Assembly: GCA_018401295.1 (NCBI GenBank)
Contig: JAGYLJ010000007.1
Span: 1-36,812 of the forward strand
Length of the DNA stretch: 36,812 nt
Direction: 5' to 3'
Source of the DNA: a bacterium
Lineage (GTDB): Bacteria; Patescibacteriota; Minisyncoccia; Phycocordibacterales; UBA12079
Part shown: positions 1,247 through 23,521 of the stretch, one piece after another
Layout: each line of letters opens with the position of its first letter
Position numbering within the stretch: position 1 is the first letter of the stretch
The notes under the pieces: generated by a model
Told to the model about the DNA's origin: nothing
What the model saw: only the letters and a program-made list of their open reading frames with translations
Databases searched by the model: none
Position numbers and translations under genes: made by a program

Positions 1247-1627
1247 TTAAATATTTTTAATTATTTTACTTATTGGAGTTCCTAAATCTTTTCCTAATGT
1301 TGATTTTAATTTTTTTTCTGCTCTTTCCATAAAAATAGTTGTGGATATCGTGAGTGTCCATATAGGAAAAGAAGCAATTATAGGGATTGCTTCCAATAAG
1401 GAACCCCCTGCTAGAGTAAAGAGTTTCTTTGGGTTATTAGTAAACTTTATTCCTTTTAACATAAACCATAAAAAAAATGTCATCCAAGCAAAAATACTGA
1501 TTAACCAATTTACAAAAGGCCCAATAAAAATCATTGTTAAGAAAGCCTGAATTCCATCAACAAGAACAGCAGTGCTGATCATTAGAGTGGCGGTAATATT
1601 ATCTATTTTAGGATTGTTTTTCTGCAT
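1247..1627 (-). CDS. Multi-pass membrane protein, T4SS-associated
   Basis: Several hydrophobic segments; overlaps the end of the VirB4 ORF. Confidence 0.6.
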   Translation of the reverse strand: MQKNNPKIDNITATLMISTAVLVDGIQAFLTMIFIGPFVNWLISIFAWMTFFLWFMLKGIKFTNNPKKLFTLAGGSLLEAIPIIASFPIWTLTISTTIFMERAEKKLKSTLGKDLGTPISKIIKNI

Positions 1628-3500
1628 CTTTTTTTTGTGTTAACTCATTTACATTTTTTAATTCTTCCATTGGTTTTTTTGTTCCCTCAGAGGATTCCTC
1701 CAGCTCTTTTTCGGACTGTCTTATGGCTAAAATTTGAGATGGGTCGGAAGTGATGATTTGATCTTCAGTATAGGAAGCAATTATTTTTATAGCCACATGT
1801 TTTAAGCCGGTAAAGAAAATACCCTCACCCACATTTGATTCTAGGAGTAAATATTTTTCTTCATCAGTTAAGTTGAATGTTTTTTGTACTACATCAATAC
1901 TGGTGGGTGACTGTTTCAATAACAACTGGATTGATGAGTTGGTAATAATAGGTAGTCCGTAAGGAGAACTTAGGAAGTCATTTACATCTTGAGTAATTGT
2001 GGAAAGGCCTAAGAAATATTTTCTACCTCTCTTAGCTAAACTAAATAGGAATGATGCTGTATCTTCTGTTTTCATCATCCACCAAGCCTCTTCTATCACA
2101 AGTAATCTTTTTCGCAAATTTTTCCTGACAGCATTCCAAATATAATGGGTAATTATATACATAGCCACTGACTTTAAATCATCTTCCATATCTCTCAAAG
2201 AAAAGACTACGAATTTTTTATTAATATCTACGTTAGTAGGTTGGTTAATAAAACCAGACCAAGTTCCTTTAGTGAATTTAGAAAGTTTCTGGGTTAATTT
2301 TTCTGTGCCTTCCATTCCTGATAGAACCAACTCAAAATCAGACAACAAAGGTGGTTCTATATTAGTGAAATCTACATCAGGAGTGATATCTTTCAGTGCA
2401 TATGTCTCTGTTACAGCCTTATCAATTATAGCGTCTTCTTCAGGACTAAGGCCTCCAAACATTACCCGAAATAAACCAACTAAGTTAATTGTATTGGAGC
2501 GTAGTACGTTTGCTTGTGATTCCCCTTCCCTTGCAATTGGTAAATCAAATGGATTGATATGGTGCTCAGAAGTAAGGGATATATTAAAGTACCTTCCATC
2601 CATAGCTTGAGATAAATATTCGTATTCTTTCTCTGGGTCAATCACCATAACTTCTATATCAAACATTAAAGAGCGAAGAATCTCTAATTTTACAGCATAT
2701 GATTTACCCGAACCAGACTTAGCAAATGTTACAGAGTTATAGTTTGGGAGAGAATATCTATCAAAAAGTACTAAACTGGAATTATGTCTATTAATTCCAT
2801 ACAGAATACCTTTATCTGAGGTTAAATCAAAAGAAACAAATGGAAAAATACTAGAAAGAGGAGCTGAATTTAATTTAGAGTGGACCCTTAGAAGGTCTTC
2901 TCCTAGAGGGAGTGTGCTTTTAAAACCCTGTTCTTGCTGAAACAAAGCTGGACGGACATATATCATTTTTGATTCTAAAATAGAGCGAATTTCTGATTCA
3001 GCTGCATCCAATTCTGCTTCTGAATCTCCATAAACTGAGATATAAACTCCAACATCAAATAGTTTTTCTTCAGCCTGTTGTAATTTATCTCGAAGATTTT
3101 CTAAGTTTTGATAGGCTGTATCTAGTGTAGGGTCACGAACTAATCCTTTTGATTCCCTTGCCATTATCTGGCTTTGCACCTCAGCGACTTTCTTTTGAAA
3201 TTGCCTCAAGACTTGGTCGGTGTCTACTGGATGAATAAAAATTGAAATATCAAATTCTTTATCTAAGTTAATAATTGGTGAAAACCAATTATCAGTTAAA
3301 AATTTTGGATATGAGATAACAAAAAAAGTTCTGGCAATCTTTTCTCCTAAACGGGTGTCCTTAGGGGTTATTTTCAAAGCTGAAGGGGCGATGATATCTT
3401 TTAACTCTAGAACTCCTGCATCGTAAATTTCCTGAGGTAAAATAGGTTCTATTTCTATTTTTTTATTTTTTTTACCTAAAAATTGATCTAATATTCCCAT
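1608..3500 (-). CDS. VirB4-family type IV secretion ATPase
   Basis: Walker A AKSGSGKSYAVK, VIDPEKEYEYL, LLVIEEAWWMMK (Walker B), TQDVNDFL motif. Confidence 0.93.
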   Translation of the reverse strand: MGILDQFLGKKNKKIEIEPILPQEIYDAGVLELKDIIAPSALKITPKDTRLGEKIARTFFVISYPKFLTDNWFSPIINLDKEFDISIFIHPVDTDQVLRQFQKKVAEVQSQIMARESKGLVRDPTLDTAYQNLENLRDKLQQAEEKLFDVGVYISVYGDSEAELDAAESEIRSILESKMIYVRPALFQQEQGFKSTLPLGEDLLRVHSKLNSAPLSSIFPFVSFDLTSDKGILYGINRHNSSLVLFDRYSLPNYNSVTFAKSGSGKSYAVKLEILRSLMFDIEVMVIDPEKEYEYLSQAMDGRYFNISLTSEHHINPFDLPIAREGESQANVLRSNTINLVGLFRVMFGGLSPEEDAIIDKAVTETYALKDITPDVDFTNIEPPLLSDFELVLSGMEGTEKLTQKLSKFTKGTWSGFINQPTNVDINKKFVVFSLRDMEDDLKSVAMYIITHYIWNAVRKNLRKRLLVIEEAWWMMKTEDTASFLFSLAKRGRKYFLGLSTITQDVNDFLSSPYGLPIITNSSIQLLLKQSPTSIDVVQKTFNLTDEEKYLLLESNVGEGIFFTGLKHVAIKIIASYTEDQIITSDPSQILAIRQSEKELEESSEGTKKPMEELKNVNELTQKKDAEKQS

Positions 3501-3520
3501 AATGTTTTTTTATTATCTCT

Positions 3521-4156
3521 CTAATTTAGTTGGACAGGTTTTTCTGATTCCCCAGGGTTAAATATTTTATAAAGTAATTCCACCGTTTCTTCTGTCCCTA
3601 ATCTAGCTAATCTAAGGCCTGTTCTAGTAAGTCCTTGTTCTACGACACTTACTCTTTGTTCTAATTGAGTTCGGGCCTCTTCAAATGAATCTGTTTTTTC
3701 TTCTTTATTTTTTGTTTTTCCAAACAAATTACCAAGGCCTCCTCCTCCCTGAAGAGCTGGTGGATTATAGGAAATAACTATAAAAAAGTTTTTGGATACA
3801 ATGTTTACATTTTCTGTGAAGTTTTTTATGAACTCAATGTATTCTTTGGTTTGGATTTTTATTAATTCATTTATTTGTTCTTTCCTCCTGGCTTCCATCA
3901 TAGCGATGTATTGTCGGATATCTAATTTTTTGGATTGGATATAAATTTGTGTGGAATATTCAAGTGAATTTAGAAAATTTTGGAATTGCATAAGGATGGC
4001 GTGTTGTTCATCTTGAGACTTTAGAGCAAAGTTTAGAGAAGATGTCATTAAAATGGAAACCATAGTTCCTCCTTTCAAAATAATAATACCATCTCGTATT
4101 TCTTTAACCGAGACGAAATCCTGTGTTTTTTTTATATTTGTGTTATTTTTATCCAT
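3521..4156 (-). CDS. TraC-like / VirB4-N-like T4SS accessory protein
   Basis: Sits between PrgI and VirB4; sequence style (VSVKEIRDGIIILKGGTMVSILMTSSLNFALKS) matches TraC-like domain proteins. Confidence 0.6.
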   Translation of the reverse strand: MDKNNTNIKKTQDFVSVKEIRDGIIILKGGTMVSILMTSSLNFALKSQDEQHAILMQFQNFLNSLEYSTQIYIQSKKLDIRQYIAMMEARRKEQINELIKIQTKEYIEFIKNFTENVNIVSKNFFIVISYNPPALQGGGGLGNLFGKTKNKEEKTDSFEEARTQLEQRVSVVEQGLTRTGLRLARLGTEETVELLYKIFNPGESEKPVQLN

Positions 4157-18508: not shown

Positions 18509-21250
18509 TTAAGAATTATATCGAGATATTATGTTTTTTTCCACCACCTCTCTTTCGGTACCGTATTTTAGACTACTGAGTTCTTTTAGTTGTTCAGCTA
18601 TTTCTGGGTTGCCTCTTTGAGAATCGACGGTTCGAATATTAAAAGGGGTCTGGGGTTGCCCATTAGCTAAAATTTTGAGGTAGGCTTCTCTGTTGTCTAA
18701 ATTGGCAATATCTTTAGCTTCAAAAGTTGGTTCAAATTGTTTAGCGAGATATTCCGCGTCGTCATTTGAAACTCGGAAGACTGCCATGGAACCGACGTTA
18801 CCGAAGACAGAGTTTTTAATTCCTTCGTCTAGTTGGGCAATAAATTGGTGTGCCATATTTAGGGATAATTTATATTTTCGTGCCTCAGATAAAATAACGG
18901 AAATAGATTCAGTTGTAACATTTTGGAATTCATCAATATATAGGTAGAAATTGGGTGGTGGGGTGCTGGCGTCAACTCGGGAAAGAGCTGCCATTGTAAT
19001 TTTTCCGACGATAATTAGTCCTAGTAGATGAGAGTTAATCTCACCTAGGCGTCCTTTACTTAGGTTGACTAGCAAAATTTTCTTCTGATCCATTATTTCT
19101 CTAAAATTAAAGGAAGATTTTCCTTGGGCGACAATCGGTCGCATAAAGTCATTACTTAAAAAGACATCAAATTTATTGGTAATATATGGAATCATATTTT
19201 TCAGAGAAAGATCACCCTCGCTTTTTTCTGCAATTTCTCTCCAGAACTGAACAACAGTTAGGTTTTTACATTTAGCTAGTTTTTCTTTTCTAAACTCAGC
19301 GTTAGACAAGACTTTAGGGATGTCTAATAAAGTGCCTTTATCTGCTGGATCATCTATCACTAATAGAACAGCATTTCTGAAATACTGTTCAAACATTGGC
19401 CCACCAGATGTCTTCATATCAAATAATTTATTAAAGATAGATAACATTTCATTTACCACAAAAGTTTTTTGTTCGGGATGATTAGCATCATATTCCAACA
19501 TATTCAAACCCATAGGATACTCCATGTTGGCTGGGTCAAAGTAAATAACATCCTCGTATCTTTCTCGGGGAATATTGGCTAAAACAGTCTGGATGTCGGA
19601 TCCGTGGGGATCGATGTAACAGACTCCTTCGCCGTTTTGGATATCCTGAGCAATCATATTCATTAAGAGGCCAGTCTTACCTGTTCCTGTTTGCCCAATC
19701 ACATAAAAATGGCGTAATCGATCTTCTGGTCCGATGTAGATATTACTTTCCATATTGTGGTAAGTATTAGTTCCTAGTAGTGTACCCTGTTTTGGTAGAT
19801 ACATAGGAGCTGGAGCGGTTTTAGCTTTGGTATGTTTAAGCTGGTGGGACGCTTTCATCCCAGTGTTAGGTAGATGGAATATCGTGGTAATCTCCTTGAG
19901 ATTGAGAGGAATGATTTGTTTTTTATTAAATCCTCGGAACGAAAAATCATGAAGGAGTTTTTTTAGATTACTTTTCTTTAATTCCTTGAAAACGATTTTA
20001 TTACCATTTGAATTTTCAAATTGGTTAAAAGAGGCTTCCATGTCGGCTAAAATATTATCAGCCCGGTCTTGAGTTTGAGCAGAACTAACTAAGCGGATAT
20101 TGGTTTGGATAATAGGACTAGCAATTTTAGTTTTTATGTTTTCCACCAACTCATCATCAATGGTCGGGTTGGTGTCCTTGATTTTTGAAGAGCTAAGGAA
20201 GATATCTTTAAACGACTTCGTTAAACCTCCTGCTAATGTTTCTGGAATATCCAGAGCTTTTGATGGAGAGTCTCCTTTTTGAATTTTTGTAAGAGCTTCT
20301 TTATATTTTTGATTGTAGGAATTTTTTTCAGAATTAAAAATTATTTGAATAGCTGCTCCCTCTTCTTTGTTTATTTTTGAAAATGAACTGAGAACAATAT
20401 TAAGTGGGTCATAGTCAAAATCGTCGTAGGTTTTGAGTGGATAAACTGGTTTTTTGGCTAAGGATAACTGCGAACCAGCAAAGGCATAATTTTCAGTGAA
20501 AATATTATAATCATCTTTAGCTTCCTCTACCCTGGCTTCTGAAAAAATAGATAAAATTTGTTTTTCAAATAGATCTTCCTTGCCGCTTGGAATAGAAATG
20601 TAGAAAACAACCTCATCCTCATTATTAGCTATGGCGATTTCTAAACTAAAATAATTAGTATATTTATTTTTACTATCGGACACTGATAACATTCCTGCAT
20701 AGAATTGTTCCATTAGAGAAATTAATTCCTTGAGAGTTTTTTCTGGTGTCTCTCCGTTGTTGGGTAAAGAAACTTCATAGAGAGTCATTTTAAGTATTTC
20801 AAAGAGTGGAGATTTTTCTGGAAGATTTTTAATGGAATGACCTTTTTTAATATATTGAACTAGAAAGCGATGAAAATCATCTTCAAGAGCAGAGTCTCCT
20901 GTTTGCTGGAGGACGGTTAGAGTATTTTTAATTCCTTGCTCTTCGAGTATTCCTAAAAGTTCCCCAATTTTTTCATCACTGGAACGAGGTTCTAAATCAA
21001 GCACGATAGCCTCAGTATTTTTTTCATTGATGCGATGTCCTTCTGTCAGTATCTCTTGAGGTTTAACTTCTGCATATTGTTGGAGAGTTTCCTTGGTGAC
21101 TTCTGCTTGGCTCTCTTGTTTCTCCAGACTAGAGCCTCTCAGAGCTTCTTCTTTTAATTTTATTTGTTTTTTTAAAAAATTTAATTCTTCTTGCGGTGAA
21201 TTAAATTTACCAATACCCTCGAATAGGTTTTGTTCAGGTAGTTTTTCCAT
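18509..21250 (-). CDS. TraG/VirD4/TraD-like T4SS coupling ATPase; start revised from 21298
   Basis: YVIGQTGTGKTGLLMNMIAQDI, YIDPHGSDIQTVL, YLYIDEFQNVTTESI; -10 TATAAT (21258-21263) lies between the two Met options. Confidence 0.88.
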   Translation of the reverse strand: MEKLPEQNLFEGIGKFNSPQEELNFLKKQIKLKEEALRGSSLEKQESQAEVTKETLQQYAEVKPQEILTEGHRINEKNTEAIVLDLEPRSSDEKIGELLGILEEQGIKNTLTVLQQTGDSALEDDFHRFLVQYIKKGHSIKNLPEKSPLFEILKMTLYEVSLPNNGETPEKTLKELISLMEQFYAGMLSVSDSKNKYTNYFSLEIAIANNEDEVVFYISIPSGKEDLFEKQILSIFSEARVEEAKDDYNIFTENYAFAGSQLSLAKKPVYPLKTYDDFDYDPLNIVLSSFSKINKEEGAAIQIIFNSEKNSYNQKYKEALTKIQKGDSPSKALDIPETLAGGLTKSFKDIFLSSSKIKDTNPTIDDELVENIKTKIASPIIQTNIRLVSSAQTQDRADNILADMEASFNQFENSNGNKIVFKELKKSNLKKLLHDFSFRGFNKKQIIPLNLKEITTIFHLPNTGMKASHQLKHTKAKTAPAPMYLPKQGTLLGTNTYHNMESNIYIGPEDRLRHFYVIGQTGTGKTGLLMNMIAQDIQNGEGVCYIDPHGSDIQTVLANIPRERYEDVIYFDPANMEYPMGLNMLEYDANHPEQKTFVVNEMLSIFNKLFDMKTSGGPMFEQYFRNAVLLVIDDPADKGTLLDIPKVLSNAEFRKEKLAKCKNLTVVQFWREIAEKSEGDLSLKNMIPYITNKFDVFLSNDFMRPIVAQGKSSFNFREIMDQKKILLVNLSKGRLGEINSHLLGLIIVGKITMAALSRVDASTPPPNFYLYIDEFQNVTTESISVILSEARKYKLSLNMAHQFIAQLDEGIKNSVFGNVGSMAVFRVSNDDAEYLAKQFEPTFEAKDIANLDNREAYLKILANGQPQTPFNIRTVDSQRGNPEIAEQLKELSSLKYGTEREVVEKNIISRYNS

Positions 21251-21257
21251 AATAATA

Positions 21258-21263
21258 ATTATA
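21258..21263 (-). promoter_or_regulatory. -10 box TATAAT 7 nt upstream of TraG-like start
   Basis: Sequence. Confidence 0.5.
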
Positions 21264-21384
21264 CAGGATTCATTTTTTATTGCATATTTCTTATCCACAA
21301 ATTATTTTTTAGGGAGTTGACTGGGGAGGTGGAATTGGTAAAATTAAAGAGTTGAATTATAAAATATTAGAAGGAATAAAAGCG

Positions 21385-22951: not shown

Positions 22952-22977
22952 AATTAGTGCAGTTAACTGCACTAATT
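22952..22977. promoter_or_regulatory. 26-bp perfect palindrome AATTAGTGCAGTTAACTGCACTAATT, trp-operator-like
   Basis: Identical to the 23491-23516 core. Confidence 0.85.
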
Positions 22978-23033
22978 TATAAATAAGTTGTAATTTAAAA
23001 TTAGAAAAATTTTAAACAAGGATTAAATAAAAA

Positions 23034-23474
23034 TTAATTTAGATCTTCTTGGATATCATATTTCCCATACAGCTCATCTAAAAACTTCCATCTACCCTTT
23101 CCGACAATTGGAGGCATTCCCATTCTGAGCACAATATCCATTTCTGTCCAAAAAGTTTTCCTGTTTTTCTTTTGCTTAACTATTTCTAAAATATTTTCAT
23201 ATTCTTCTAAATCAATTTTTATGGCCATTTTCCTGATTGTAGCAATACTTACATTTAAAACTTTATGGATACGATACCATGACATTTTTTCGTATAACAT
23301 AAAAATAATTGAAAACCTTTTGGCTAAAACAACTTTTTCAGAATAGGTAAGTAATTCACCCAAAAAATAATTGATTGAATTTTTAGTATTTAGATTATAA
23401 ATAGTTTCAACTAGCCGATCGTTCATCTTATTGAAAACGCTATCCTCTAATTTCTTTTTTGAAATATTTACCAC
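23034..23474 (-). CDS. TrpR-like (YerC/YecD-type) transcriptional regulator, GTG start
   Basis: LLTYSEKVVLAKRFSIIFMLYEKMSWYRIHKVLNVSIATIRKM. Confidence 0.75.
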   Translation of the reverse strand: MVNISKKKLEDSVFNKMNDRLVETIYNLNTKNSINYFLGELLTYSEKVVLAKRFSIIFMLYEKMSWYRIHKVLNVSIATIRKMAIKIDLEEYENILEIVKQKKNRKTFWTEMDIVLRMGMPPIVGKGRWKFLDELYGKYDIQEDLN

Positions 23475-23485
23475 ATATAAATTAT

Positions 23486-23521
23486 AACATAATTAGTGCA
23501 GTTAACTGCACTAATTATGTT
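23486..23521. promoter_or_regulatory. 36-bp perfect palindrome AACATAATTAGTGCAGTTAACTGCACTAATTATGTT overlapping the TrpR-like promoter
   Basis: Read directly; -10 TATAAT at 23481-23486 abuts it. Confidence 0.9.

Follow-up and report, generated by a model that had tools for sequence, protein, structure and literature searches.

The window (the whole stretch of DNA analyzed, 36,812 nucleotides from a Paceibacteria-type Patescibacterium) carries a gene for a 146-aa protein of the TrpR superfamily, with matched perfect palindromes on both sides. We consider it probable that protein and palindromes form a self-binding module: the protein would read the palindromes flanking its gene and repress itself, and the dispersed non-promoter sites seen in genomes with related genes would have arisen in place. 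The locus comprises the following:

23034 to 23474, minus strand: gene for the 146-aa TrpR-superfamily DNA-binding protein, with a GTG start and including the stop codon
23486 to 23521: upstream palindrome, perfect over 36 bp, a putative operator; its 26-bp core (23491 to 23516) is identical to the downstream copy
22952 to 22977: downstream palindrome, perfect over 26 bp, identical to the upstream core
23481 to 23489, minus strand: extended −10 element TGTTATAAT, read directly, with its hexamer at 23486 to 23481

As the first-pass annotation had noted, the sequence AATTAGTGCAGTTAACTGCACTAATT occurs in the window as two identical perfect copies (22952 to 22977 and 23491 to 23516), one on each side of the gene; 100 dinucleotide shuffles put the expected number of matches at 0, even at 3 mismatches. 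The downstream palindrome starts 57 nt beyond the stop codon, and the upstream copy does extend, as claimed, to a perfect 36-bp palindrome against the −10 box. The genome scan for additional copies that had been proposed covered the remainder of an assembly that totals 619 kb and is 77% complete; it yielded one further near-copy of AATTAGTGCAGTTAACTGCACTAATT with 2 mismatches, at G000:C12:69587. It is a solo 68-bp perfect palindrome with no adjoining TrpR-like gene, located between a kinase-like and a phosphoenolpyruvate-synthase-like gene (named by eye from their translations). Elsewhere in the window, type IV secretion-like genes were recognized by eye at 1608 to 4156 and 18509 to 21298 (minus strand), with a VirB4-like protein, also named by eye, split over two adjacent ORFs (3521 to 4156 and 1608 to 3500).

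The 146-aa protein scored 45.8 bits against Pfam PF01371 (Trp_repressor; gathering score 27; E = 6.4e-12), 25.4 bits against the NCBIfam TrpR equivalog TIGR01321 (below its cut-off of 67.25), and 29.2 bits against TIGR02531 (YerC/YecD, which is HisR; below its cut-off of 42.2). An AlphaFold2 model made with 24 relatives had a pLDDT of 87. The first 41 matches returned by Foldseek from the PDB were all TrpR or YerC-like, with TM scores (target) of 0.64 to 0.81 and probabilities of 0.94 to 1.00, at E-values of only 0.03 to 0.8. The protein is a member of the TrpR superfamily by profile and by modeled fold, and to that extent its earlier description as TrpR/YerC-type stands; judged by the family cut-offs, however, it lies outside both TrpR and YerC/HisR. 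Two features distinguish it from these families: the N-terminal arm, M-x-H/N-[IV]-S-K, and a C-terminal GMPPxxGKGRWKxL region that close relatives conserve. Pfam and NCBIfam profiles and Foldseek identified no transposase, nuclease, or other catalytic domain. The nearest public relatives come from metagenome-assembled Candidatus Paceibacterota. In phylum-level relatives (L248, L251 to L254, L260, and L263), the conserved C-terminal region is another one, YPxYFWPxxLL, which points to a protein family that may have exchangeable tails.

The role for tryptophan proposed in the first-pass annotation found no support. TrpA (PF00290), the only trp gene tested, was detected in 0 of 11 family genomes and in 14 of 14 controls, and a tryptophan regulon was rejected because TrpA was missing from all 11. 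Alignment by eye presumably places Met83, a bulky residue, at the position of TrpR Gly85 in the tryptophan pocket, and we take Lys82 to be the equivalent of TrpR Arg84. The proposed likeness to the trp operator is slight: the published TrpR consensus, TGTAcTnGTnnACnAgTACA, shares only the central GTnnAC and the outermost T (PMC9413887). The palindrome had also been put forward as a rare operator for a YerC-type protein; that source equates YerC with HisR, for which 20-bp palindromic operators are already published, with autoregulation in about half of genomes (PMC9413887). The window site, TAGTGCAGTTAACTGCACTA, is unlike the HisR operator, cacTTTAnnnnnnTAAAgtg.

A search of 397 related genomes found homologs in 54, with no more than 4 in any one genome and some interrupted by stops, and 67 homologous loci from one order were taken for comparison. 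Matched palindromes lie on both sides of the gene at 60 of the 67 loci, each pair with a sequence particular to its locus, while 7 have no matched pair by the criterion used; palindromes do, then, accompany orthologs in other genomes. When the upstream flank of one locus was set against the downstream flank of another, 63 of 328 swaps matched, a null value inflated because the common TACGATATATCGTA type is present at many loci. L066 and L068, both among the 60, encode plain YerC-like proteins and were excluded from the covariation set, leaving 58 loci in which the half-site frame is constant (T at −2 in 58/58, C at −5 in 55/58, and T at −7 in 53/58). In the sister species G003 and G004, the genes are orthologous and occupy the same places, and between the two species the upstream and downstream palindromes have changed together. 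G002 and G005, of the same genus, lack the gene. Paralogs within one genome have identical half-sites in just 1 of 18 pairs; half-sites from different genomes are also seldom identical (24 of 1,635 pairs), so the paralog differences show diversity and not proven avoidance.

A profile search of a phylum sample, which may also catch plain YerC-like proteins, matched in 110 of 380 genomes, and at 16 of the best 29 loci matched palindromes flank the gene on either side, in some cases with another frame. At L066 (in G033, a Patescibacterium), the plain YerC-like protein is bracketed by HisR-type sites (CTTTAnnnnnnTAAAG), one centered 36 nt ahead of the match and the other 29 nt beyond it, which suggests that the both-sides layout is not confined to the new family. 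At L013, L039, L053, L057, and L070, which come from several families, the gene is located within or next to a tRNA Cys/Leu(TAA)/Lys/Leu(TAG) cluster.

The strongest evidence for the predicted binding is covariation between residues and bases. Mutual information, computed over the 58 loci for protein columns against half-site positions, gave z-scores of 16.6 for residue 3 and bp −1, 15.9 for residue 78 and bp −4, 14.5 for residue 45 and bp −1, and 12.7 for residue 43 and bp −1; the highest for any other residue was 5.4. His3 goes with A(−1) in 34/34 cases and Asn3 with T(−1) in 10/10; Ser78 goes with G(−4) in 34/39 and Thr78 with A(−4) in 11/11. We also counted coincident changes on the branches of a tree built without the tested residues. 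Support was strong for residue 78 with bp −4 (6 changes, P = 0.0005) and residue 82 with bp −4 (6 changes, 0 of 2,000), and moderate for residue 3 with bp −1 (3 changes, P = 0.0075). Residues 43 (P = 0.09) and 45 (P = 0.49) were not significant in this tree-aware test, so part of their covariation reflects shared ancestry. Residues 78 and 82 align with Ala80 and Arg84 in the recognition helix of TrpR, both listed among its DNA contacts in PMC9413887. Covariation shows recognition-helix residues 78 and 82 as the predicted readers of bp −4 and N-terminal-arm residue 3 as that of bp −1, and residues 43 and 45 probably read bp −1 as well; binding of the protein to the palindrome that flanks its gene is strongly supported by these comparisons of sequence.

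Such base-specific covariation with the protein would be unexpected if the palindromes were RNA or DNA hairpins, such as terminators, and the protein association were secondary. Long, perfect, locus-specific arms would fit hairpins, as would the frequent location of copies at 3′ ends or in convergent spacers and a terminator scan that flags the upstream palindrome. Most sites, however, lack a U-tract by eye, and copies lie within housekeeping genes; we regard the hairpin reading as scarcely probable at all.

On the minus strand, the window palindrome runs into ATG-T-TATAAT, an extended −10 element (TGnTATAAT) 6 nt ahead of the GTG codon, with base 23486 common to palindrome and hexamer; by this placement the message is leaderless or near-leaderless. 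A two-hexamer promoter scan did not report the element because there is no −35. TGnTATA(A/C)T also directly follows the palindrome at L007 and L010, and over the 58 loci the center of the upstream palindrome is a median of 30 nt ahead of the start codon, and exactly 18 nt ahead at ten of them. The overlap of the upstream palindrome with the promoter makes autorepression likely, as the first-pass annotation had predicted; control by tryptophan, which it had envisaged, is unsupported.

Further cognate palindromes, from 1 to about 27, are present in the genomes that carry the gene. With the copies at the gene included, TACGATATATCGTA occurs 27 times in G051, 21 in G192, 14 in G373, and 13 in G198, and TNCAGTTAACTGNA occurs 29 times in G029 and 11 in G063. 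The reversed control pattern gave 0 in every genome in both searches; one control match appeared when a third pattern was used in a small search run afterward. Among genomes without a detected gene, the TACGATATATCGTA pattern was found in only 2 of 16, at 1 to 2 copies, and G002, G006, G010, G021, and G022 have 1 to 2 copies despite no detected gene. Dispersed copies often come as doublets. Several Paceibacteria genomes (contigs of L103, L104, L113, L226, and G346) share another perfect palindrome, CCTGCCTGCCGGCAGGCAGG, which sometimes lies near the sites.

The contexts of 72 solo clusters were assigned with a simple ORF caller, some of whose short ORFs may be spurious: 31 are in tandem, 15 in convergent, and 2 in divergent spacers, 20 are in ORFs, and 4 are at contig edges. 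Fourteen of the 20 in-ORF clusters lie in frames of at least 250 aa, which by eye include AlaS, TsaD, MiaA, UvrC, YchF, and a Mur ligase. A promoter regulon was rejected, since solo sites avoid divergent spacers. For an ordinary amino-acid-type repressor with a metabolic regulon, like TrpR or HisR, one would cite the TrpR fold, the promoter overlap of the upstream palindrome, and the 20-bp operators and frequent autoregulation of HisR (PMC9413887). The solo contexts, the sites within ORFs, the paired downstream copy, the lack of TrpA, and a tryptophan pocket that is not conserved all speak against such a repressor, which we judge very unlikely.

The number of sites is what recommends a chromosome-architecture protein, an analogue of those that use parS, matS, or SlmA sites, with the palindromes as its binding array. 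Some species have about 10 to 30 perfect palindromes per genome, intergenic and intragenic and arising in place, and in G346, where the census covered 550 of about 605 kb, this type accounts for about half of the perfect palindromes that are 20 bp or longer. The distribution of the gene is patchy, however (54 of 397 genomes), specificity changes fast, several different paralogs can share a genome, and some genomes have very few copies; the window genome contains just a single additional perfect copy, which makes a chromosome-wide role doubtful in that case. An architectural function appears unlikely. The dispersed sites appear to be neither an ordinary regulon nor the product of classical transposition, and it is plausible that the module's own protein occupies them.

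How sites arise could be followed at a few genes. In MiaA, in TsaD (against genus-mates of G373), and in YchF, sites show no indel relative to orthologs, and insertion of a palindrome was rejected for these genes. Alignment gaps near the site at L142 (a membrane-protein gene) and L144 are ambiguous for insertion, and the TsaD loop of G051 is indecisive, its length varying between families. Of the two arms of the MiaA site, the left (FYI codons) is shared by every ortholog, and the right repeats it in inverted form. At the same TsaD codons, G373 and G341 have palindromes with different but perfectly symmetric arms; family palindromes of different sequences occupy the variable loop of TsaD in four genomes (G051, G373, G341, and, imperfectly, G024; L140, L149, L159, and L309). 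Among 215 perfect-core sites with arms of at least 10 bp, the mean further extension was 3.9 bp against 0.45 expected, and 63% were extended by at least 3 bp against 3% expected, in sequence specific to the locus. The orthologous solo sites L106 and L107 differ by a concerted change (A5/T5 versus A6/T6), and at L103 and L104 one flank has been replaced by the inverse of the other. From these cases (MiaA, L142, YchF, and the two orthologous pairs), a template switch that copies one arm onto the other would be the simplest account, though the cases are few. G240 has a site downstream of atpC that is absent from the orthologous spacer of G343; the two spacers are highly diverged. In G240 and G343 (L265, L266, and L274), sites adjoin a second palindrome family (GGTTCAACC/GGTTGAACC), inside repeats that are similar in part.

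Such turnover is one reason to consider a selfish, REP/RAYT-like system, in which mobile palindromes, their founding copies flanking the gene, would be mobilized by the TrpR-like protein with host enzymes. The flanking of the gene on both sides, the frequent doublets, the match of repeat type to resident gene, the differing half-sites of paralogs (17 of 18 pairs), and the patchy distribution all suit this. The protein has no transposase domain, however, and the MiaA, TsaD, and YchF sites formed by substitution with no inserted DNA. Several gene loci are syntenic across species and even families, although the overall distribution is patchy, so the gene is not recently mobile. At the sensitivity used, searches of phages, plasmids, and viral contigs turned up no relatives, and such an origin was rejected; a distant profile search of genome contigs found only the same family. 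A selfish system is improbable on this evidence. A bolder proposal, that the protein makes its own sites, is distinctly unlikely: bound at half-sites or imperfect palindromes, it would stall replication and provoke a hairpin template switch, leaving perfect palindromes in place, including in essential genes. This would amount to a sequence-specific palindrome-writing drive with neither transposase nor nuclease.

We therefore favor the self-binding module set out at the start. The protein, probably a dimer, would bind a palindrome of about 20 bp, 5'-NNTNCRNTN|NANYGNANN-3', in which −7 T, −5 C, and −2 T are nearly fixed and the remaining positions would be tuned to each protein. Bound upstream, it would likely repress its own promoter, and the downstream copy likely permits bridging or looping across the gene. 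Dispersed copies, where testable, would have begun by substitution in place and been perfected with locus-specific arms as one arm was copied onto the other at a hairpin. They would be most likely non-promoter binding sites (for DNA bridging or as roadblocks) or by-products of the module, and not the promoter operators of a regulon.

To our knowledge, very few operators have been experimentally defined in Patescibacteria, and a literature search pairing Patescibacteria/CPR with TrpR or with palindromes yielded no relevant work. For a regulator family of this phylum, the comparison offers a protein-DNA recognition code that can be read in part, predicted from sequence alone, whose residue-base pairs (bp −4 with 78 and 82; bp −1 with 3) could be tested with a few mutants. 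What goes beyond the first-pass annotation is a palindrome specific to its locus, its coevolution with the protein, and copies dispersed genome-wide: a self-bracketed module in 54 of 397 related genomes whose dispersed sites do not fit a normal regulon or classical mobile repeats. The symmetric arms pose a concrete question, how palindromes are made and kept.

The protein resembles E. coli TrpR in its fold, in the GTnnAC center of its site, and in covariation at the equivalents of Ala80 and Arg84, and as with the trp operator, a promoter-overlapping palindrome of about 20 bp would mediate autorepression. Unlike TrpR, it scores far below the equivalog cut-off, has a bulky Gly85 equivalent and no TrpA in its genomes, uses an N-terminal arm that covaries with the center of the site, has an extra C-terminal GxGRW region, and has sites on both sides of its gene as well as dispersed ones. 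Rickettsia palindromic elements are in-frame insertions of about 100 to 150 bp inside protein-coding genes; the sites described here also lie within coding genes but span 16 to 32 bp and, where tested, arose by substitution. YerC, or HisR, is the nearest named family by profile and likewise has lineage-specific 20-bp palindromes and frequent autoregulation; its sites, however, are promoter operators of his genes with the consensus cacTTTAnnnnnnTAAAgtg, and the available part of the source mentions no downstream or dispersed copies (PMC9413887). REPIN/RAYT systems share a gene flanked by palindromes that match a dispersed family in the same genome, one type per gene and often in doublets, and RAYT is a Y1 HUH transposase (PMC3116915). 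The module differs from them in having a TrpR fold and no nuclease domain (by Pfam and NCBIfam), in palindromes that are fully perfect with locus-specific arms, and in intragenic copies that, at MiaA, TsaD, and YchF, formed without insertion.
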